Origin: Desulfofustis limnaeus
GTDB lineage: Bacteria; Desulfobacterota; Desulfobulbia; Desulfobulbales; Desulfocapsaceae
Reading direction: 5' to 3'
DNA length: 64,000 nucleotides
NCBI RefSeq assembly: GCF_023169885.1
Contig: NZ_AP025516.1
Coordinates: 3,637,501-3,701,500 of the forward strand
The notes under the pieces were generated by a model, which worked only from the letters and a program-made list of their open reading frames with translations, searched no databases and was not told the DNA's origin. Below are positions 1 through 29,334 of this stretch, piece after piece (the first letter of the stretch is position 1; each line of letters starts with the position of its first letter). The position numbers were made by a program, and so were the translations under genes.

Positions 1-1
1 C

Positions 2-1993
2 GTCACCGAGGAGATGAAGCAGAAGCAGGCCGCCGACGAGAAGATCGAGAACCTCAACACCATCCCCACCCCGATCATGGCCCTTGATACCGAGTTCAGC
101 ATCACCTACATGAACCCGGCCGCCGCCGCCGTGGTCGGTTCGACACCCGATGAAGTACTCGGCAAGAAGTGCTACGACCTGTTCAAGACGCCGCACTGCA
201 AGACTGACAAATGCGCCTGCGCCCGGGCCATGAAGACCGACTCGGTGGTCACCGAACAGACCATCGCCCGGCCGGCCGAGGGGGTCATCATCCCCATCAA
301 GTACACCGGCGCCCCAATCAAGGACGCCAAGGGCAACATCAAGGGAGCGCTCGAATACGTCCTCGACGTCACCGAGGAGATGAAGCAGAAACAAGCGGCC
401 GACGAGAAGATCGAGAACCTCAACACCATCCCCACCCCGATCATGGCCCTTGATACCGAGTTCAGCATCACCTTCATGAACCCGGCCGCCGCCGCCGTGG
501 TCGGCTCCACGCCGGACGAGGTGCTCGGCAAGAAGTGCTACGACCTGTTCAAGACGCCGCACTGCCAGACCGACAAATGCGCCTGCGCCCGCGCCATGAA
601 GACCGACTCGGTAGTCACCGAGCAGACCATCGCCCGGCCGGCCGAGGGGGTCATCATCCCCATCAAGTACACCGGCGCCCCGATTAAGGACGCCAAGGGC
701 AACATCAAAGGGGCGCTCGAATACGTCCTCGACGTCACCGAAGAGATGAAGCAGAAACAAGCGGCCGACGAGAAGATCGAGAACCTCAACACCATCCCGA
801 CGCCGATCCTGTCCGTGGATACCGATTTCACCATCACCTTCATCAACCCGGCCGGTGCTGCCGTTGCCGGTATGAGTCCGGATCAGGCCGTCGGCAAGAA
901 ATGTTACGACCTGTTCCGCACCGATCACTGCCGTACCGACAAATGCGCGTGCGCCCGGGCCATGAAGACCGATTCCGTGGTCAGCGAGCAGACAACGGCC
1001 AACCCAGCCGGTCGGCAGATGCCGATCAAATACACCGGCGCCCCGATCAAGGACGCCAAAGGCAATATCAAAGGCGCTCTGGAATACATCACCGACGTCA
1101 CGGCAGAGAAAGAAGTGGAACGGCTGATTGCCAGCTCGGTTGCCGAGGTGGACACGCTGGTGGGGGCATCACGCCAACAGATGGATGAAGCCAACAGTCA
1201 GGTGGACGAAATGAACGCCATCATCGACGAGGCGGTCCGCCAACTCGACGATTCGATGCAGACCGTCCAGGCGATGCTGAAGAGCTCCAACGAGATGCTT
1301 GGTTTATCGAAGGAATCAAACAAACTGGCCGCCAGCCTGGCCAAGGAGGCGGAAACCGGCAAGAACGCGGGCCGCGATGCCGGCAGGAAACTGGCCGACA
1401 TCAACGCCACCATGCAGAAGAACAACGAGATGGTCGCCGGGTTGGTCGGTCAGTTGGAGAAGATCTCCAGCTTCGTCGACATCATCAAGGAGATCGCCTC
1501 CCAGACCAACCTGCTGGCCTTCAACGCTGCCATTGAAGCGGCCCGTGCCGGCGACGCCGGGCGAGGCTTTGCCGTGGTCGCCGACGAGGTGCGCAAGCTG
1601 GCTGAGAACAGCTCCAAATCAGCCATCGATATCTCGAACATCGTCAAGAACGTGGAAAAAGAGTCGCACCAGACGATCAACGCCATGCAGGAGGGCATGA
1701 AGATGCTCACCGAAGGTGGTCGGGTTATCAATACCGCTCTCGATTCGATGGAGGAGATTTCCAAAGGTATCGGCACTATTACCTCCGCCGTGGATAAGGT
1801 GAGCAGCCAGGCCGAGGGGCTCAACACTGACGGAACGCTGGTCATGAACAAGATTGAAACGGTGGCCTCGTCATCGAAAAAGAACCAGCAGTCAACGGTG
1901 GCCGTCAATCAGGCCCTTTCCGAGACGGTGGCGGCCATGACGCAGCTGATGGCCTCCAGCAAGGAACTGCAGGAAGCAGTCAACAACCGGTAA
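2..1993 (+). CDS. Methyl-accepting chemotaxis protein with tandem PAS domains (5' partial)
   Basis: Chemoreceptor signalling to CheA/CheW. The frame is already open at base 2, which encodes the end of another PAS repeat, so the true start is upstream and at least one more PAS unit is likely. Counting from the Met at 14, PAS units cover residues 1-122, 123-244 and 245-365. Each holds the motif GKKCYDLF followed by HCxTDKCAC, i.e. four or five clustered cysteines that could bind a metal or act as a redox centre (inference). A coiled coil follows, then the signalling hairpin tip ([17 protein letters not shown], about 497-513). No membrane segment or HAMP domain is visible, so the receptor looks cytoplasmic unless these lie upstream. 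There is no C-terminal NWETF-type tether. A GC-rich hairpin follows the stop. Confidence 0.93.
14..1108 (+). repeat. Three tandem 366/366/363-bp PAS-encoding repeats
   Basis: Units run 14-379, 380-745 and 746-1108. Each opens with the same [20 protein letters not shown] segment. Units 1 and 2 have exactly the same length and their proteins differ at only two positions of 122 (Tyr/Phe before MNPAAAA and Lys/Gln in the cysteine motif). Unit 3 is one codon shorter and more divergent. Bases 2-13 are the end of a further unit upstream. This points to recent duplication or gene conversion. Confidence 0.95.
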
Positions 1994-2004
1994 TAAAGGG
2001 GGCT

Positions 2005-2039
2005 CTTGTTCCGGCCGACCATGAGCCGGCCGGAACAAG
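2005..2039 (+). terminator. Hairpin between the chemoreceptor and the GNAT gene
   Basis: A perfect 13-bp inverted repeat (2005-2017 with 2027-2039, CTTGTTCCGGCCG) with a 9-nt loop lies 12 nt after the chemoreceptor stop. There is no clear T-tract, so it may be a weak terminator or an RNA-stabilising hairpin. The in-frame TTG (2006) and ATG (2021) start candidates of the next gene lie inside it, which argues for the later ATG at 2048. Confidence 0.6.
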
Positions 2040-2047
2040 AACGACGT

Positions 2048-2611
2048 ATGACCATTTTCGGTGAAACCCTATTTACGCCGCGGCTGCGGTTGCGCAAGAT
2101 AACCGCCGACGACTTGCCCCTGCTGGTCGCTTGGAGTAACAGCGAGGACGCGCACGGGCCCTACCTGACTCCGGATCGTCTGAACCTGGAGACAGGCCGG
2201 GAGAAAATCGAGTCGGGTGCATTCTGGTCGGAAAAAAACAAAACGTTTCTCATCGAGCGCCGCGACGGGACGCCGGTGGGCCTGATCAATTACTGGCTCC
2301 GCTCGGAGAAACGGTGCTGCGCCGTGATCAAGGTCAAGATCACGGAACCGGATCAGCGCGGCAAGGGATTTGGTACCGAGGCGCAAAAATACCTGATCCT
2401 CAACCTGTTCGATCGGCTCAAGGTTGAAGAAGTCGAGATGTATACCGACATCAACAACAAGGCGCAGCAACGATGCCTCGGCAAACTCGGGTTCGATCTG
2501 GTCGAATCACTGACCTATGACGATCATCAGGTGCGTCGCCTGGGACATCTCTACCGGCTGCCGGAAGCACGGTATCACCATCATCCGGTTTATCGTTACC
2601 ACTATGAATAA
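2048..2611 (+). CDS. GNAT family N-acetyltransferase (RimJ/RimL-like)
   Basis: A 187-residue acyl-CoA-dependent N-acetyltransferase. The acetyl-CoA pyrophosphate loop QRGKGFG sits at residues 103-109, followed by the usual helix and by a C-terminal LGKLGFDLVES segment typical of RimJ/RimL-like GNATs. The N-terminus (TPRLRLRKITADDLP) matches the family start, and the ATG at 2048 avoids the hairpin covering the two upstream candidates. Its stop codon overlaps the start of the deacetylase gene by 8 nt, so the two are probably translationally coupled. A GNAT next to an AcuC-like deacetylase recalls the acuA/acuC pair that controls acyl-CoA synthetase; that analogy is inference and the substrate is unknown. 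Confidence 0.85.
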   Translation: MTIFGETLFTPRLRLRKITADDLPLLVAWSNSEDAHGPYLTPDRLNLETGREKIESGAFWSEKNKTFLIERRDGTPVGLINYWLRSEKRCCAVIKVKITEPDQRGKGFGTEAQKYLILNLFDRLKVEEVEMYTDINNKAQQRCLGKLGFDLVESLTYDDHQVRRLGHLYRLPEARYHHHPVYRYHYE

Positions 2612-3629
2612 GCTCGGTATCCTGCTCGACGACCGCTATTTCGAGCATTGCATCAACCGGCCCAGCCCGGAAAATCCCGGCCGCCTTCGTCGTCTCTTCC
2701 CGACCGTTAAAGAGCGCTACAACGGCTCCATAACGCTGGTGGCGGCACGGGAAGCGCACACCGCCGATATCGAGCGGGTCCATTCCGGGTTCTACCTGAG
2801 CCAGATCCGCAACCATGCCGCCCGGAACGACCCCTTTTCCTACGATCGGGACACCTATCTCATGGACCGCTCCCTGGAAACCGCCCGCCTGGCTGCCGGC
2901 GGCTGTCTCGAATTGGCGGACAAGGTCATGGACGCAGCGATCTCCCACGGGTTCGCCCTGATCAGACCGCCCGGCCACCATGCCGAACCGGGCCGCGGGA
3001 TGGGGTTCTGCATCCTGAACAATGTCGCCATCACGGCCCGCTATCTGCAGCGAGTCTACGGCCTGAATCGCATCCTCATTATCGATTTCGACGTGCACCA
3101 CGGCAACGGGACGCAGGAGTGTTTCTACGACTCGGACAAGGTCCTCTTCGTCTCCCTGCATCAACGCGACCTGTTCCCCTTTTCCGGCGGCAGTGACGAG
3201 ATCGGCAGCGACAGCGGCCTCGGTTTTACCGTCAACATCCCGGTCTACAGCCAATTCGGCGACCCTGAATATACCTATCTGCTGGGGAAGCTGATGCACA
3301 ACCTGGTCGAACAATACCTGCCGCAGATCATTCTCGTCTCTGCCGGCTACGACGGTCATCAGGACGACTCGATCAGCGGCACCCTGCTGACCACCCGCTG
3401 GTTCCAGACCGCAGCCACCTTGATCAGGCAATGCGCCGAAGACCTGTGCGACAGCCGGCTCCTGTTTGTTCTCGAAGGCGGCTACAACCCCGAATCCCTT
3501 GAAAAATCGGTGCTTGCCACCATAGACGGCCTGCTCCTGCCCACGACCGGACGGGTCGGAATCCTCCATTCGGAACGTGCCGCCACCCTGCTGGCCAACC
3601 ATCCGCTTCATCACTTCTGGACACTCTAA
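2604..3629 (+). CDS. Histone deacetylase-family / AcuC-like deacetylase
   Basis: A 341-residue zinc-dependent deacetylase of the arginase/HDAC fold. The active site is intact: the His pair in PPGHHAEPG (H125/H126), zinc ligands D163 and H165 in DFDVHHGNGT, the third ligand D250 in SAGYDGHQDD, and the catalytic-type Tyr294 in LEGGYNPESL. The ATG at 2604 lies inside the last codons of the GNAT gene; earlier in-frame starts would put unrelated residues before the conserved start. Bacterial members act on acetyl-lysine proteins (AcuC), acetylpolyamines or acetoin-linked substrates. The adjacent acetyltransferase favours protein deacetylation, but a polyamine substrate is also possible given the potABCD genes in this window. 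Confidence 0.9.
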   Translation: MNKLGILLDDRYFEHCINRPSPENPGRLRRLFPTVKERYNGSITLVAAREAHTADIERVHSGFYLSQIRNHAARNDPFSYDRDTYLMDRSLETARLAAGGCLELADKVMDAAISHGFALIRPPGHHAEPGRGMGFCILNNVAITARYLQRVYGLNRILIIDFDVHHGNGTQECFYDSDKVLFVSLHQRDLFPFSGGSDEIGSDSGLGFTVNIPVYSQFGDPEYTYLLGKLMHNLVEQYLPQIILVSAGYDGHQDDSISGTLLTTRWFQTAATLIRQCAEDLCDSRLLFVLEGGYNPESLEKSVLATIDGLLLPTTGRVGILHSERAATLLANHPLHHFWTL

Positions 3630-3638
3630 GAGACACCC

Positions 3639-4067
3639 ATGACCAAGCACATCGATCTCGATCAATCCGCCCTGTCGTCAATCTTTCACGAGTGCCAGCA
3701 ATGCGCCACCTGTTGCAAGACCTACCGCAAGATTACGCTGCAGCCGAATGAAGTGGATTTCATCAAGAAAATGGGAGGGCATGTGGGGGTCGATGTTACC
3801 TTGACCGACATTCGCACCAAAGGCCTGGTCAAGGCCAGCGAGGAAGCGATGGCCAAAGGCAAGGTGTTCATGATCCACCCGGACGACAAGGGTTGTCTGT
3901 TCCTGGAAAAGCGTGACAACAAGTATTATTGCAAGATTTACAACTACCGGCCACGATCCTGCCGCGGGTTCAAGTGCAACCTGGCCGACGGCACCTTTCT
4001 CGACCTCTTCGGCCAGGATTCAATCCATCTGCTCGGCCAGAACCGTTTCGGGCTGCCGTTGAAATAG
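3639..4067 (+). CDS. YkgJ-family cysteine-cluster protein
   Basis: A 142-residue protein of the YkgJ/Fe-S-Zn cluster family. The N-terminal CxxCxxCC motif (C19, C22, C25, C26) pairs with later cysteines in GCLFLEK, YYCKIYNYRPRSCRGFKC, the family hallmark of a probable zinc or Fe-S site. The start is the ATG 9 nt after the deacetylase stop, so it is probably in the same operon. The family has no proven biochemical role; some members are suggested to work in metal chelation or protein modification. Nothing here narrows that. Confidence 0.85.
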   Translation: MTKHIDLDQSALSSIFHECQQCATCCKTYRKITLQPNEVDFIKKMGGHVGVDVTLTDIRTKGLVKASEEAMAKGKVFMIHPDDKGCLFLEKRDNKYYCKIYNYRPRSCRGFKCNLADGTFLDLFGQDSIHLLGQNRFGLPLK

Positions 4068-7773: not shown

Positions 7774-9660
7774 TCAAGCCAGTTCGTCGAACCGGCAGGT
7801 CAATACCAGTTCGCCGTCCTCCAGCTGCTTGTGGACCTTGTACGGAAGGGTCCTGAACAGGGCGATCATCGGCACATTGGACGGGAACGTATAGGCAATC
7901 AGACCGGAGATGCCGCTCTCGCGGGCCACCTCGGACAGCTTGTGCAAGAAAATCCGGCCCAGTCCCTTGCCCTGAAATTCCGGGCTGACGGAAAAGGCCA
8001 CTTCGGCCAGATTCTCATCCTTGAGCCGCATGAACTCGGCAACGCCCACCACTTTGCCGAAGCCGAATTCGCCGACCACCGCCACCAGCGTCAGGCTGTT
8101 GACGTAATCGATTTGGGAACGGATCTCCACATCCTTGCGGGCAAATATGGTTTTTTGGCCGAAAAACCGGGAAACGACATCTTCCTTGGGCAGGGTGTAG
8201 TAATGCTCCTGGATGCGTCGCTCATCCACCGGCTTGGCCGGCCGAATCACCACTTCGGTACCGCCGATCTCGATAGTCTCCTCGAGCCGCACCGGATAGA
8301 CCGCCTTGGCCGCCTCCCCGAGACTTCGTTCCCGGCCGATGAGCCCCTGCTGCTTCGCCGCCTCGAACAGATCTTCCCGATAATCGGGATGGGCGATGGA
8401 GATCATGGCGACAACCCGTTCCTGCAGGCTTTTGCCAAAGAGATTGACGGCACCGTATTCCGAAACCACGTAATGCACATCCCCTCGCGGCACCACCACG
8501 GCGGTATCGCCCATCGTTGGCACGACGCTGGAACGCGTCGACCCGTCTGCCTGGAGCTGGGTTGAGCAGAGCATCAGGATCGATTTGCCGCCGGCCGAGC
8601 GGCGGGCGCCGCGGACGAAATCGGGAATACCTGATACCCCGGCGAATCTGGTCAAGGCAGAGGCCTCAGCAGCGACCTGACCGGTCAAATCCATGATATA
8701 AGCGACATTGAGCGAGACCATGCGCCGGTGCTGGGCGATGACGAAGGGGTCATTGACATAATCGGACGGGCGGAAATCCACCGCCGGGTTGTCGTTGAGG
8801 AACTCGTAGAGATCCTTGCTGCCGACCGCCATCGATGCCACCATCTTGCCTTCGTTCAACCCTTTTTTCAGGTTGGTGATATTACCCTTGGCATAGAGCT
8901 GCATGATATCGTCGGTCAAAAATTGTGAATGAATCCCCAGGTCGTTTTTGTTTTCCAGGCCGCGGACCGTTGCCTGGGACGCGGCATCGAGACCGATCTG
9001 CAGCGTCGAGCCGTCATCGATGAGATGGGTGATGTGGCTGCCGATCAACGCCGCCGCTTCCGTCAGTTCGCGCACCGGAGACACCGCCAGCAGTTCCTCC
9101 TCATACTCGACAAAATAGTCGACGTAATTGACATGGATGAAGCTCGATCCCATGACCCGCGGCATCTTCGAGTTGACCTGCGCGACCACGATGTCGGCTG
9201 AGCGGGCCGCCGCCATGGTGACATCGACGGAGATACCCAGGCTCATCCAGCCGAAATCGTCCGGCGGGCTCACTTGAACCAGGGCCACATGCAGCGGCAT
9301 CTTGCGCGAAAGAAACAACGAAGAGACATCCGACATGTTCATCGGGGTGATAAACCGACGATGCTGGGCGATGGCCTCAGCGGTGGCGGAACCGAGATAA
9401 ATGGAGCGGATGTTGAGGCTAGTATCCTTGGTTCGATCGGCGATGGCCGTTAGCGATGCGGTTTCTCGACCGAGGAGCCGGACAATCTCCAGCCCGCTGA
9501 ATGAGTTCGCCGCCTCGGTCAGGCACTGTACCAGGTGCTGCGGTTCACCGCAGCCGGATCCGATAAACACCCGTTGCCCGGATTTGATATAACCGATGGC
9601 GGTTGCACCGCTGACGCGGCGCTGCAGATATCTGTCTGCCCAGTATTGGGATGCCGGCAT
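7774..9660 (-). CDS. Acetyl-CoA hydrolase/CoA-transferase fused to a C-terminal GNAT domain
   Basis: A 628-residue two-domain protein. Residues 1 to about 460 are a class I CoA-transferase of the 4-hydroxybutyrate CoA-transferase/acetyl-CoA hydrolase type with the covalent-intermediate Glu401 in VVSEYGAVN and the GSGCGEP CoA loop near the N-terminus. From about residue 475 a GNAT domain follows with the acetyl-CoA loop FQGKGLG. AGGAG lies 8 nt before ATG 9660, so the upstream extension to 9735 is not used. It is last in the beta-oxidation operon, 229 nt after the acyl-CoA dehydrogenase. It probably exchanges CoA between acetyl-CoA and short acyl groups. The GNAT may acetylate the transferase or partner enzymes (inference). 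Confidence 0.92.
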   Translation of the reverse strand: MPASQYWADRYLQRRVSGATAIGYIKSGQRVFIGSGCGEPQHLVQCLTEAANSFSGLEIVRLLGRETASLTAIADRTKDTSLNIRSIYLGSATAEAIAQHRRFITPMNMSDVSSLFLSRKMPLHVALVQVSPPDDFGWMSLGISVDVTMAAARSADIVVAQVNSKMPRVMGSSFIHVNYVDYFVEYEEELLAVSPVRELTEAAALIGSHITHLIDDGSTLQIGLDAASQATVRGLENKNDLGIHSQFLTDDIMQLYAKGNITNLKKGLNEGKMVASMAVGSKDLYEFLNDNPAVDFRPSDYVNDPFVIAQHRRMVSLNVAYIMDLTGQVAAEASALTRFAGVSGIPDFVRGARRSAGGKSILMLCSTQLQADGSTRSSVVPTMGDTAVVVPRGDVHYVVSEYGAVNLFGKSLQERVVAMISIAHPDYREDLFEAAKQQGLIGRERSLGEAAKAVYPVRLEETIEIGGTEVVIRPAKPVDERRIQEHYYTLPKEDVVSRFFGQKTIFARKDVEIRSQIDYVNSLTLVAVVGEFGFGKVVGVAEFMRLKDENLAEVAFSVSPEFQGKGLGRIFLHKLSEVARESGISGLIAYTFPSNVPMIALFRTLPYKVHKQLEDGELVLTCRFDELA

Positions 9661-9889
9661 GGCGTCTGCTCCTGACCTCTGGTTCGTCTCAGGCCCGGAA
9701 CCGTTGTCCAACCGTTGCCATGCGTCGCTCCACACCGGCGAAAAGAAAACGGAGACAGCAGGGGAACAGGATCAGCGACAGGGCGCCGGACCAGCACCCG
9801 CATCACGGGTATCACCCATGATAGCACAGAACCAAACGGCAGCAGAAGCAATAACGGCTGGCCGAACAAAAACCTTGCGCAGTCGCCTC

Positions 9890-20335: not shown

Positions 20336-22102
20336 ATGGGTATGAAGACACTCTACAAAGAGGTAATGGACCTGAACATGATGGAGGACAGCGACCGACA
20401 GGAGGCTGCCGCCAAAGCCTTTTTCGAAAAACTGAACAAAATGGCCCTACCCGAGTATTTCAACTGGGCCCAGGAGATTTTCGACGAACTCCATGTGCAG
20501 GAGCGCGGCGACAAACCGGCACTGATCTGGACCGACATCCACAGCAAGCAGGTGCGACAGTTCACCTATAAGGAATTTGCCGCCAACGGCAATCGCTGTC
20601 TCAATCGACTGCGCCAAGCCGGTGTCGATAGAGGAGACAACCTCTACATGATGGTGCCGATCGTCCCCGAGACCTGGTTTTCCACCTACGCCTGCGTCAA
20701 AGGCGGCGTCGTCAACGTGCCGACGGCCACCACCATGACCCTGCGAGAAATGGAATTCCGTTTTCGCACCTATCCACCCAATGCGGTGATCGCTGCCGAG
20801 ACCTTTACCGACATGATCGATGAGGCGCTCAAACTCACCGGTTCGCAGGCGAAGATCAAGATCGTGCTGGGCAGCAAGCCGGGCTGGGTCAGCTACGAGG
20901 ACCTCGCTTCGGCATCGCCCGAAGCGGTCGGGGCCAAGACCAAGTCAAACGATCTGCTGTTCTGTTTCTTCACCTCCGGGACCACCGGCCTGCCGAAACG
21001 GGTCGGCCACACCGCCGTTTCCTATCCGGTCGGCCACCTGTCCACGGCGGTCATGGCCGGTATCCGCCCTGATGATGTCCATCACAACCTGAGCGCACCG
21101 GGGTGGGCGAAGTGGGCCTGGAGTTCATTCTTCGCCCCACTCAACGTCGGCGCCACCGGCACCGGATTTTCCTTCACCGCCCTGGATGGCATGGCCTACA
21201 TGGAGGCCCTGACCAAACACAAGGTTTCGGTCTTCTGCGCCCCGCCCACGGCGTGGCGTGCCTTCATCAACCTCGACACCTCGGGATTCGATTTCTCCCA
21301 TCTGCGCCAGTCCATCGGCGCCGGCGAACCGCTCAACCCGGAAGTCATCTCCAAATGGCAAAAGATGACCGGTACCGAAATCAGGGATTTCTACGGTCAG
21401 ACCGAGTCAACGGCGATGATCGGCAACGCCCCGTGGATGGTCGGCAAGATGCGCAAAGGCTCGTTTGGCCACCCGTCGTTCATGTACGACGTCGCCCTGG
21501 TCGACGACAGCGGCAAGGAGATCACCACCTCCGACGAGCCGGGCCATATCGTCGTCCGACTCGATCGCTGGCGAGCCATCGGGTTGTTCACCGAATACAT
21601 CGGTAACCCGGAGAAGATGGCCGGAGTCTTTATCGACAACTACTACTATACCGGTGACCGGGCCAGCATCGATCAGGACGGCTACTGGTGGTTCGTCGGC
21701 CGCAGCGACGATGTGATCAAATCCTCGGATTATCGGGTCGGTCCTTTCGAGGTGGAAAGCGCCCTGATGGAGCATCCGGCCGTGGCCGAGACCGCCGTGG
21801 TCGGCGTTCCCGACGAGAAACGCCACCAGCTGGTCAAGGCCTTCGTCATCCTCAAACAGGGACAACAACCGTCTCGGGAACTGGCCCTGGACATGTTCCA
21901 ACACACCATCAACATCCTGGCCAAGTTCAAGATCCCGCGCATCATCGAGTTCGTCACCGAGGTACCGAAGACGCTCAGCGGTAAAATCCGCCGGGTGGAA
22001 CTGCGGGAACGGGAGGTGGAGCGCCAGAAGCAGCAGGGCGCGCAACCGGCGCAGGAGCATTTCTACTGGGATTTCCCCGAACTGTCATCGAAGAAGGATT
22101 AA
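20336..22102 (+). CDS. AMP-forming acyl-CoA synthetase (medium-chain / ACSM-like)
   Basis: A 588-residue adenylate-forming ligase converting a carboxylic acid, ATP and CoA to acyl-CoA. The P-loop FFTSGTTGLPKRVGH, the A5 motif FYGQTEST and the hinge/A8 region SDDVIKSSDYRVGPFE are intact. The catalytic C-terminal lysine is K550 in PKTLSGKIRR, a sequence that matches the classic regulatory acetylation motif. A GGGAGGG sequence lies 3 nt before ATG 20336. The sequence resembles medium-chain or benzoate-type ligases (MMVPIVPETWF), but chain length cannot be read from it. It is the first gene after an operator-bearing promoter. Confidence 0.92.
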   Translation: MGMKTLYKEVMDLNMMEDSDRQEAAAKAFFEKLNKMALPEYFNWAQEIFDELHVQERGDKPALIWTDIHSKQVRQFTYKEFAANGNRCLNRLRQAGVDRGDNLYMMVPIVPETWFSTYACVKGGVVNVPTATTMTLREMEFRFRTYPPNAVIAAETFTDMIDEALKLTGSQAKIKIVLGSKPGWVSYEDLASASPEAVGAKTKSNDLLFCFFTSGTTGLPKRVGHTAVSYPVGHLSTAVMAGIRPDDVHHNLSAPGWAKWAWSSFFAPLNVGATGTGFSFTALDGMAYMEALTKHKVSVFCAPPTAWRAFINLDTSGFDFSHLRQSIGAGEPLNPEVISKWQKMTGTEIRDFYGQTESTAMIGNAPWMVGKMRKGSFGHPSFMYDVALVDDSGKEITTSDEPGHIVVRLDRWRAIGLFTEYIGNPEKMAGVFIDNYYYTGDRASIDQDGYWWFVGRSDDVIKSSDYRVGPFEVESALMEHPAVAETAVVGVPDEKRHQLVKAFVILKQGQQPSRELALDMFQHTINILAKFKIPRIIEFVTEVPKTLSGKIRRVELREREVERQKQQGAQPAQEHFYWDFPELSSKKD

Positions 22103-27687: not shown

Positions 27688-29334
27688 TCAGCTGAATTCC
27701 TTGCGCATGGCCCGCTTGTTCAGTTTGCCGACACTGGTTTTGGGCAGTTGTTCCACGAGCAGGATTCGTTCCGGCACGGCATAGCGGGGGATGAGCCCCT
27801 GCCGGGCGGCCTCGGCCATGAACTCGCGCAAACCGTCACTGTCCACCGCCGATTGCTGGTCCGGTTTCAGGGTCACGATCAACAGCGGCCGCTCCCCCCA
27901 TTTGTCGTCCGGCACCCCGATGGCCGCCGCTTCCAGAACCGCCGGATGACGGCTGATGCAATTTTCCAAATCCAGAGAGGAGATCCATTCTCCTCCGGTC
28001 TTGATCACATCCTTGATCCGATCGGTCACCTGCAGATAACCGTCCGCATCGATATGGCCGACATCGCCGCTATGGAGCCACCCATCCCGCCACAGTTCCC
28101 GAGTCTTGGCCGGCGATTTGAAATAATCCTTGGTCAGCCACGGGGCTCGGAAGACCACTTCGCCGACCGAAACGCCATCATGGGGCAGCGGAGTACCATC
28201 CAGATCGACCACCTCAAATTCCACCAAGGGAATCGGTAATCCGGTCTTGACCACCAGATTCAGTAACTGATCGTCATTGAGCCGACCAAGCATGGTCGTC
28301 TTCGGTGTCGAGAGGCTGATCACCGGGCAGGTCTCCGACATGCCGTAGCCGGTATAGACGACGATTCCCAACTCCTGCGCCGCCGCAGCCAGACCGGTGG
28401 ACAATTTGGCACCACCGATGATCACCTTCCATCGCGACAGGTCCACCTGCCGGGCTGCCGGACTGGTCACCAGCATCTGTAGGATGGTCGGTACACAATG
28501 GGACGCGGTCACACCCTCGGTGACGATCAGGCGCAACAGCATCTCCGGCTCATAGCGTCCCGGATAGACCTGTTTGGTGCCGAGCAGAGTTGCCACATAG
28601 GGTAGCCCCCAGGCATGGACGTGAAACATCGGCGTCAACGGCATATAGACATCGTTTGATCGGAAACGGCCGATGGTTTCATAGCTGCCCAAGGCGATGG
28701 CCAGCGACAGGGTATGCAGGACCAATTGCCGGTGACTGAAGTGCACTCCTTTGGGATCACCGGTGGTTCCGGTGGTGTAGAAGGTGGTGGCCTTGGTGTT
28801 TTCATCGAGATCGGGGAAATTGTAGGTGTCGGCTGCAGCAGCCAGCAGTGATTCGTATTCGGCATCGATAGTCAGCCCGCACTCCTGCGGGACCTCGTTC
28901 TCGACAATGACGACGATTTTTTCGACCCAGGTGAGCCGCTCCCGGATCTGTGCCAGCAGCGGCAGGAAATCGCCATTGATGATGATCACCCGGGCCTCGG
29001 CGTGGTTGATGGTATATTCGATCTGAGCCGCCGACAGCCGCCAGTTGACCATCTGCATGACCGCTCCCATCATCGGTATGGCGAAAAAGCACTCAAGAAA
29101 ACGGTTGCTGTCATAGTCGAAGACCGCAACCGTGTCACCCTCCTTGACGCCAAGCGAGCTGAGACCACCGGCAAGTCGATGAATGCGTCGGTTCAGGTCG
29201 CGATAGCTGCAGCGGAAGCGATCCCGATAGACGATCTCCTGATCGGCGGCATAGAGCAGCGCCGTGCCCAGAAGTTTCTTGATGAGCAACGGATAATCGT
29301 AACATTCACCTGCGGGAAGGGTCTGTTCAGCCAT
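27688..29334 (-). CDS. AMP-dependent acyl-CoA synthetase/ligase (fatty-acyl type)
   Basis: A 548-residue adenylate-forming ligase of the long/medium-chain fatty-acid type. The P-loop FYTTGTTGDPKGVHFSH, the YTGYGMSETCPV motif, the DRIKDVIKTGGEWIS linker and the catalytic Lys537 in LPKTSVGKLNKR are all present. AGGAGG 8 nt before ATG 29334 sets the start and excludes the upstream 32 codons. A degenerate operator-like site lies about 110 nt upstream. It differs from the synthetase at 20336, so the cell probably activates at least two acid classes. Confidence 0.92.
   Translation of the reverse strand: MAEQTLPAGECYDYPLLIKKLLGTALLYAADQEIVYRDRFRCSYRDLNRRIHRLAGGLSSLGVKEGDTVAVFDYDSNRFLECFFAIPMMGAVMQMVNWRLSAAQIEYTINHAEARVIIINGDFLPLLAQIRERLTWVEKIVVIVENEVPQECGLTIDAEYESLLAAAADTYNFPDLDENTKATTFYTTGTTGDPKGVHFSHRQLVLHTLSLAIALGSYETIGRFRSNDVYMPLTPMFHVHAWGLPYVATLLGTKQVYPGRYEPEMLLRLIVTEGVTASHCVPTILQMLVTSPAARQVDLSRWKVIIGGAKLSTGLAAAAQELGIVVYTGYGMSETCPVISLSTPKTTMLGRLNDDQLLNLVVKTGLPIPLVEFEVVDLDGTPLPHDGVSVGEVVFRAPWLTKDYFKSPAKTRELWRDGWLHSGDVGHIDADGYLQVTDRIKDVIKTGGEWISSLDLENCISRHPAVLEAAAIGVPDDKWGERPLLIVTLKPDQQSAVDSDGLREFMAEAARQGLIPRYAVPERILLVEQLPKTSVGKLNKRAMRKEFS

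Follow-up and report, generated by a model that had tools for sequence, protein, structure and literature searches.

The 64,000-nucleotide stretch of the Desulfofustis limnaeus genome studied here (contig NZ_AP025516.1, positions 3,637,501 to 3,701,500 of the forward strand; "the window" below) begins inside a conserved module of five genes, which by their sequences appear to encode, in order, a protein with three CheW stretches (the triple-CheW protein), a soluble chemoreceptor (methyl-accepting chemotaxis protein, MCP) with six PAS stretches, a GNAT acetyltransferase, a class II-type histone deacetylase homologue (HDAC) and a YkgJ protein. The linkage of these genes is shown by computation, and the substrate of the two enzymes is what we infer. 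Our favoured reading, held at slightly below even confidence, is that these genes make up a chemosensory module equipped with a dedicated writer and eraser of acetylation, which probably act on the receptor. Since the writer and eraser genes adjoin the sensor gene wherever the sequence of a locus reaches it, the arrangement suggests that some bacteria tune a chemotaxis-type sensor by reversible acetylation.

The five-gene module and its conservation

The gene for the 525 aa triple-CheW protein and the start of the receptor gene fall outside the window; the receptor gene begins about 1.08 kb ahead of it, and its 3' part occupies positions 1–1993 (+ strand). This part, open as a frame from 14 to 1993, belongs to the same conserved unit and went unnoticed in the original prediction, a reading of the window made without database searches. 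The GNAT gene, for the proposed writer (187 aa; Acetyltransf_3, E 7.9e-19), lies at 2048–2611 on the + strand, with its ATG at 2048 and its stop codon ending at 2611, and the gene for the proposed eraser, the HDAC (341 aa), lies at 2604–3629 on the same strand, with its ATG at 2604 and its stop codon ending at 3629. The Hist_deacetyl profile covers the latter protein from positions 2 to 296 of 298 (E 3.9e-91). The two genes overlap by 8 nt, ATGAATAA, and they are followed by the gene for the YkgJ/CxxCxxCC protein, a proposed metal or Fe-S accessory (3639–4067, + strand; 142 aa; PF03692, E 3.5e-8). The original prediction had seen both the 8-nt overlap with an intact HDAC-family gene and the YkgJ-like gene behind it, and we find them as it described. 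The overlap is more than chance, because its length is exactly 8 nt in 38 of the 45 orthologous loci.

Forty-six loci with an orthologue of this HDAC were collected. The order to which D. limnaeus belongs supplied 41 of them, from 40 genomes, and the phylum sample three more, from other families; one comes from Candidatus Tharpella aukensis (L034) and one from a record labelled Desulfuromonadaceae (L035). The module genes co-occur in these loci, nearly always in the same order, across a patchy set of genera. The synteny of GNAT, HDAC and YkgJ genes in relatives, which the original prediction had proposed as a check, thus holds: a GNAT gene is present in 45 of the 46, the remaining locus being cut by its contig start (the L191 contig begins within the HDAC gene, and the upstream part is out of sight), and a YkgJ gene is found in 41. 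One of the five loci lacking YkgJ, L117, has a sequence that stops 162 bases past the HDAC gene, and the YkgJ gene of L165 runs off its contig end. The receptor signalling domain is present in 44/46 loci, with a gap of at most 125 nt between receptor and GNAT genes in 42/44, and the triple-CheW gene precedes the receptor gene in all 31 loci whose contig extends that far. L035 holds the genes together but rearranged, as MCP end, YkgJ, GNAT and HDAC, and its sequence opens on a frame of 50 residues similar to the ends of module receptors (about 31–40% identity, best E 8e-6). Alignments were subsampled to 14 of the 31 triple-CheW proteins and 22 of the 31 long receptors; left out were L008 and L118 (the same locus, in which the chosen stretch runs a few codons past the gene) from the GNAT alignments, the partial L191 from the HDAC alignment, the partial L163 and L165 from the YkgJ alignment, and L180, whose range held a stop, from the CheW alignment.

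We screened 257 genomes of the order for the two proteins. The triple-CheW protein is encoded in 43 of them and the HDAC orthologue in 40; every genome with the HDAC also has the triple-CheW protein, which leaves three with the triple-CheW protein only. The hypergeometric figure for this co-occurrence, 1e-43, assumes independent genomes and serves as a yardstick only. Two of the genomes with only the triple-CheW gene, G536 and G620, have contigs that end behind or within the receptor gene, and the CheW frame of G620 also has a stop, as does that of G612. The module is spread over 16 of the 69 genera of the order. Over the phylum, a YkgJ orthologue is found in eight of 395 genomes and the HDAC orthologue in the same eight (578–629 bits; the next-best HDAC scores 356). 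None of 112 other HDAC loci matches GNAT, YkgJ, MCP/receptor or the triple-CheW protein at E 1e-3; these controls comprise 78 named records, 31 loci from relatives and the phylum search and three from the same genome, with a median length of 8.1 kb and, for many, flanks of 1.5 kb only. Chance adjacency of the module genes is ruled out by the order in the 46 loci, the 31/31 occurrence of the triple-CheW gene, the co-occurrence over 257 genomes and the absence of matches at the 112 control loci.

Several observations concern individual copies and their surroundings. G511 has two copies of the module (L166 and L167), one of them without YkgJ. In G540 (L228) no more than 25 bases separate the first part of the CheW gene from the final 168 codons of the HDAC gene, behind which lies YkgJ, an arrangement whose sequence indicates an internal deletion. 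Downstream of the module the commonest gene group occurs in 15 of 40 loci and the next in six. Thirteen loci (two partial) have a sigma-54 response regulator gene ahead of the CheW gene, and a 173 aa cysteine-containing frame without a Pfam match (L114:2334-2855, about 2.7 kb ahead of the window) recurs in 14 loci ahead of the CheW gene and behind the sigma-54 response regulator gene.

The receptor, its PAS repeats and the stem-loop behind its gene

The receptor is 1023 aa in full (L114:4423-7494) and consists of six PAS stretches followed by an MCP signalling domain (about 1346–1867 in the window; MCPsignal PF00015, E 3.9e-36) in which the conserved hairpin region is present. Membrane helices usually reach a hydrophobicity of about 1.6, and the highest value in any 19-residue window is 1.23 in this receptor and 1.58 over the receptors examined; because no such window reaches membrane-helix hydrophobicity, we read the receptor as soluble. 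Receptors with a visible start and no break range from about 670 to 1270 aa and differ in PAS copy number. Several contigs stop inside the MCP gene, perhaps owing to its near-identical PAS copies. The D. limnaeus genome has only nine MCP genes in 4.23 Mb, and its two CheA genes both lie elsewhere.

The last PAS repeat (776–1090, + strand) has a cysteine motif, whose first cysteine lies at about 902, and a lysine-rich hairpin at about 1043–1075; this patch, a candidate site of acetylation, is found again in other PAS copies. By a sequence pattern we cut 155 PAS copies from 40 of the 44 receptor frames, some copies being missed; since the pattern itself demands a cysteine at index 39 (counted from 0) preceded by two basic or polar residues, C39 and K38 carry no evidence. 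Cysteine stands at index 48 and 53 in 155/155 of these copies and at index 55 in 117/155, and lysine at index 82, 89, 92 and 96 in 144, 153, 155 and 132 of the 155. An alternative pattern gave 163 copies, with lysine in 161, 163 and 140 of them at the K89, K92 and K96 sites. Homologous PAS domains occur in other receptors of the phylum. Seventeen distinct ones from outside the module, drawn from 11 genomes (L243 was excluded since it is part of a module receptor), largely retain the cysteines and have lysine at positions 82, 89, 92 and 96 in 0/17, 11/17, 1/17 and 0/17; five of the 11 control PAS regions were searched with their flanks (L266–L270), and these gave no GNAT, HDAC or YkgJ match. 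The signature lysines of the module copies lie on or beside the lysine-rich hairpin, which precedes the D-x-T that closes the PAS domain. Such a signature would fit a target patch for acetylation, and we take it as a lead.

Between the receptor and GNAT genes a 14-bp stem-loop without a T-run is predicted at 2004–2040 (+ strand; z -4.55, none of 200 shuffles being as stable), a candidate attenuator or processing site. Seven receptor-GNAT gaps were folded with shuffles, of which four gave z below -3 and three z between -1.3 and -2.2, and plain folding energy alone was used for the others. A stem recurs in the gaps of relatives with different sequence, and in L034, L124, L189 and L190 the gap is 5–22 nt and without such a stem-loop. 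The stem-loop may set the level of the enzymes below that of the receptor.

The two enzymes, the YkgJ protein and their possible substrates

Sequence motifs predict that the HDAC is a class II-type (HdaH/HDAC6-like) zinc-dependent deacetylase, of cluster 1, with intact catalytic residues. The motifs RPPGHH, GFC and EGGY are identical in 45/45 orthologues, and the HH dyad, the zinc ligands (D-H-D) and the catalytic tyrosine are invariant; the C-terminal tail has an HPxxxxW motif whose His, Pro and Trp are kept in 42/45. Its best single-domain match among solved structures is bacterial HDAH (203 bits), with related class II enzymes alongside; HDAC6 scores 169 bits per domain and 319 over two domains, and the acetylpolyamine hydrolase 3men scores 107. 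The best 60 of 138 PDB matches are HDAC6, HDAH, HDAC4/7/10/15, clr3, HDA1 and similar, and they include a chain, 5li3, that is titled "Acetoin utilization protein" and scores like the adjacent HDAH chain 5g0x. The label "AcuC-like" given to this gene by the original prediction does not hold. AcuC-type (cluster 2) enzymes carry XGGLHH and (G/A)GGY (Graf 2024, PMC11532494), and the HDAC is not an AcuC because RPPGHH and EGGY stand in their place; membership of AcuC (cluster 2c, class I-like) is ruled out by these motifs in 45/45 orthologues together with the ranking of the best 60 of 138 PDB matches. The glutamate gatekeeper of HDAC10-type enzymes (PEG motif) is absent from the orthologues, which have a nearly invariant I257 and S258 there. 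Bacterial acetylpolyamine deacetylases carry P-I-S at this site, and in the bacterial ApaH enzymes (cluster 4) the L1 and L2 loops form a head-to-head dimer that closes the active site (Graf 2024, PMC11532494). By sequence, only the Ile-Ser site of our HDAC resembles the P-I-S of these enzymes, and on account of this likeness the HDAC might act on small amines.

The GNAT model built from 44 orthologues is of high predicted quality (mean pLDDT 91.4). In a fold search SpeG scored Z 20.3, with RimJ, NAT9, RimL and AAC(6') within about 1 of it (Z 18 to 20 for the tied group), and among solved structures matched by sequence a RimL-type protein came first, followed by SpeG, with AAC(6') also present. 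The tyrosine of the last GNAT motif is catalytic in SpeG and AAC(6'); this position is leucine in 43 of the 44 module GNATs and alanine in one. Two other GNAT-like domains were noted. The one fused to the CoA-transferase (acetyl-CoA hydrolase/transferase family) at 7774–9735 on the minus strand, correctly picked out by the original prediction, is C-terminal and weakly like the mycobacterial Pat model (60 bits; cut-off 460). The other is in a 598 aa frame near 3963361-3963993 of G000:C1 (minus strand; L004), in which a GNAT-like domain is fused to a more distant HDAC (domains judged by reading), possibly another writer-eraser pair in one chain.

The YkgJ protein contains the CxxCxxCC cluster, and C19, C22, C25, C26, C86, C98, C108 and C113 are invariant in 39 aligned rows. 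Its predicted structure is poor (mean pLDDT 56), and a search of PDB sequences with the YkgJ profile returned two weak and unrelated matches (E 0.15). The flagellin lysine methylase FliB shares a cysteine-rich motif with it: the CX4CX3CC motif of FliB, likened by its authors to PF03692, binds an oxygen-sensitive [4Fe-4S] cluster (PMC8598068). The protein here differs from FliB in its length of 142 aa, and no methylase activity is implied. The likeness of its cysteines to FliB and the cysteine-bearing PAS domains of the receptor make a redox or metal cue for the module a fair guess.

On our favoured reading, in which writer and eraser probably act on the receptor, the cysteine-containing PAS repeats would respond to a redox or metal-linked signal from within the cell, the GNAT would acetylate lysines of the module proteins, most likely those of the patch that recurs in the PAS repeats, and the HDAC would strip the acetyl groups, so that acetylation could set the sensitivity of the receptor or tie it to the supply of acetyl-CoA. 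The CheW protein would connect the receptor to a CheA kinase encoded elsewhere, and YkgJ, the least conserved part of the module, might supply or sense a metal or Fe-S cluster. A more specific version, to which we give clearly less credence while thinking it possible, is an acetylation memory: reversible acetylation of the lysine hairpins in the PAS array would make receptor gain track acetyl-CoA and redox state, as a second covalent adaptation beside methylation that is encoded with the receptor. Several findings weigh against the favoured reading. The argument that GNAT and HDAC act on the receptor is drawn from sequence and gene context. Eleven of 102 PAS columns separate the module copies from the outside group and only two of these are lysine; the 155 copies, cut from 40 receptors, do not count as independent, the receptors of the module are all closely related, and the lysine signature may reflect shared ancestry. 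The fold of the modelled GNAT ties polyamine, aminoglycoside and N-terminal acetyltransferases, so that its substrate could be of any of these types. No CheA gene was seen in the module at the loci examined. YkgJ is absent from L162, L167, L189 and L190 and broken in L163; not every copy is tight (the receptor-GNAT gap of L186 is 546 nt) or intact (in L173, of G550, a stop codon interrupts the receptor frame where the signalling domain begins, through decay or assembly error). Finally, G536 and G620, whose assemblies are 84% and 93% complete, yielded no HDAC orthologue anywhere at 1e-95, and the gene may be truly absent there.

Four other explanations were weighed. The GNAT and HDAC could act on a small amine such as a polyamine, with the receptor sensing the amine or its acetylated form; SpeG and AAC(6') among the relatives of the GNAT and the Ile-Ser site of the HDAC speak for this, whereas the leucine in place of their catalytic tyrosine, the far better fit of the HDAC to HDAH and to a single HDAC6 domain than to 3men and the missing glutamate gatekeeper speak against it, and it leaves the lysine signature of the receptor unexplained. 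We regard it as rather unlikely. It is also unlikely that the targets of the pair are signalling proteins further down the pathway, such as CheY or CheA, with the receptor deciding only where or when the enzymes act. Precedents exist: in E. coli CobB reverses the acetylation of CheY, and the two reactions regulate chemotaxis (PMC2883070), and CheA, CheB, CheR and CheY1 of Azorhizobium caulinodans are acetylated as well as one MCP (PMC9927263); moreover, two CheA genes are available elsewhere in the D. limnaeus genome and the conserved C-terminal tail of the HDAC could be a docking site. Against these stand the location of the lysine signature in the receptor and the lack of CheY as well as CheA genes in the module at the loci examined.

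The original prediction took the pair for an AcuA/AcuC-like switch acting on AMP-forming synthetases encoded in the window, and the motifs it named are there: the acyl-CoA synthetase at 20336–22102, an AMP-forming enzyme, carries PKTLSGK with Lys550, and PKTSVGK is found near 27744 on the minus strand. In addition, a bacterial HDAC that is not an AcuC, PsApaH, deacetylates acetylated AcsA in vitro (Graf 2024, PMC11532494). This synthetase may be acetylated, and nothing links it to the GNAT/HDAC pair. It is absent (E cut-off 1e-100) from four of eight other module genomes (G005, G022, G471 and G472) and distant in the other four, by about 166 kb in G014, by more than 1 Mb in G015 and G535, and on other contigs in G018, which rules out a conserved link between synthetase and module. 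With the AcuC motifs missing from the HDAC and its conserved partners being chemosensory, we consider this switch very improbable; of the writer-eraser idea, the conserved and mostly overlapping gene pair stands and the synthetase scheme falls, the conserved partners being the chemoreceptor and the triple-CheW protein. Simple co-inheritance of functionally unrelated neighbours, for which it can be said that all members could stem from one founding locus, is scarcely credible given the patchy distribution over at least five families, the rearranged and complete set in L035 and the variation of downstream neighbours between groups; nor does any genome show an intact pair of triple-CheW and receptor genes without the enzymes.

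The linkage narrows the candidate substrates to a short list, and the module is small enough to be rebuilt in vitro. Were the receptor the substrate, sensory adaptation would gain a lysine-acetylation arm with its own writer and eraser, a relative of histone deacetylases would work inside a chemosensory unit, and the suggestion from Azorhizobium that HDAC-type enzymes act on chemoreceptors (PMC9927263) would become testable.

Relation to known systems

To our knowledge, a dedicated substrate has been assigned to few bacterial enzymes of the HDAC type. The module HDAC shares RPPGHH, GFC, EGGY and the zinc ligands with the class II/cluster 1 bacterial enzymes such as HdaH and is set apart from them as an orthologue group of its own, whose C-terminal tail is conserved and whose genes stand in a chemoreceptor context; the word "chemotaxis" is found nowhere in the main text of the paper that describes those enzymes (Graf 2024, PMC11532494). 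The AcuABC/AcsA switch of Bacillus subtilis likewise pairs a GNAT writer with a zinc deacetylase as its eraser. In the module, by contrast, the HDAC is by motif not an AcuC, the synthetase is unlinked, and a chemoreceptor and CheW are linked instead.

CheR and CheB provide reversible methylation of chemoreceptors, in the signalling domain. Acetylation by the module would likewise be a reversible covalent tuning of a receptor, differing in that it would place acetyl groups on lysines in the sensory domain. In the E. coli CheY/CobB system lysine acetylation feeds chemotaxis as well (PMC2883070); there the eraser is a sirtuin and the substrate a response regulator, whereas the module encodes a zinc HDAC together with a GNAT, a receptor and CheW.

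A close parallel is AZC_0414 of A. caulinodans, a Zn-dependent HDAC whose deletion raises acetylation and increases chemotaxis toward succinate and proline; its authors liken it to HDAC4/7 and HDAH and speculate that MCPs or other chemotaxis proteins are its substrates (PMC9927263). An HDAC that affects chemotaxis and an acetylated MCP are thus features of that system, as we propose for the module. The difference is that AZC_0414 is treated there as a single deacetylase with many substrates, and the accessible part of that report mentions no operon of receptor, CheW and GNAT genes (PMC9927263). Nor did the titles and abstract openings of the openly licensed papers that our searches listed describe a dedicated operon of receptor, CheW, writer and eraser. 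Receptor acetylation and a role for an HDAC in chemotaxis therefore have precedents; the novelty here lies in a dedicated unit, conserved as such, that joins receptor and CheW with a writer and an eraser.

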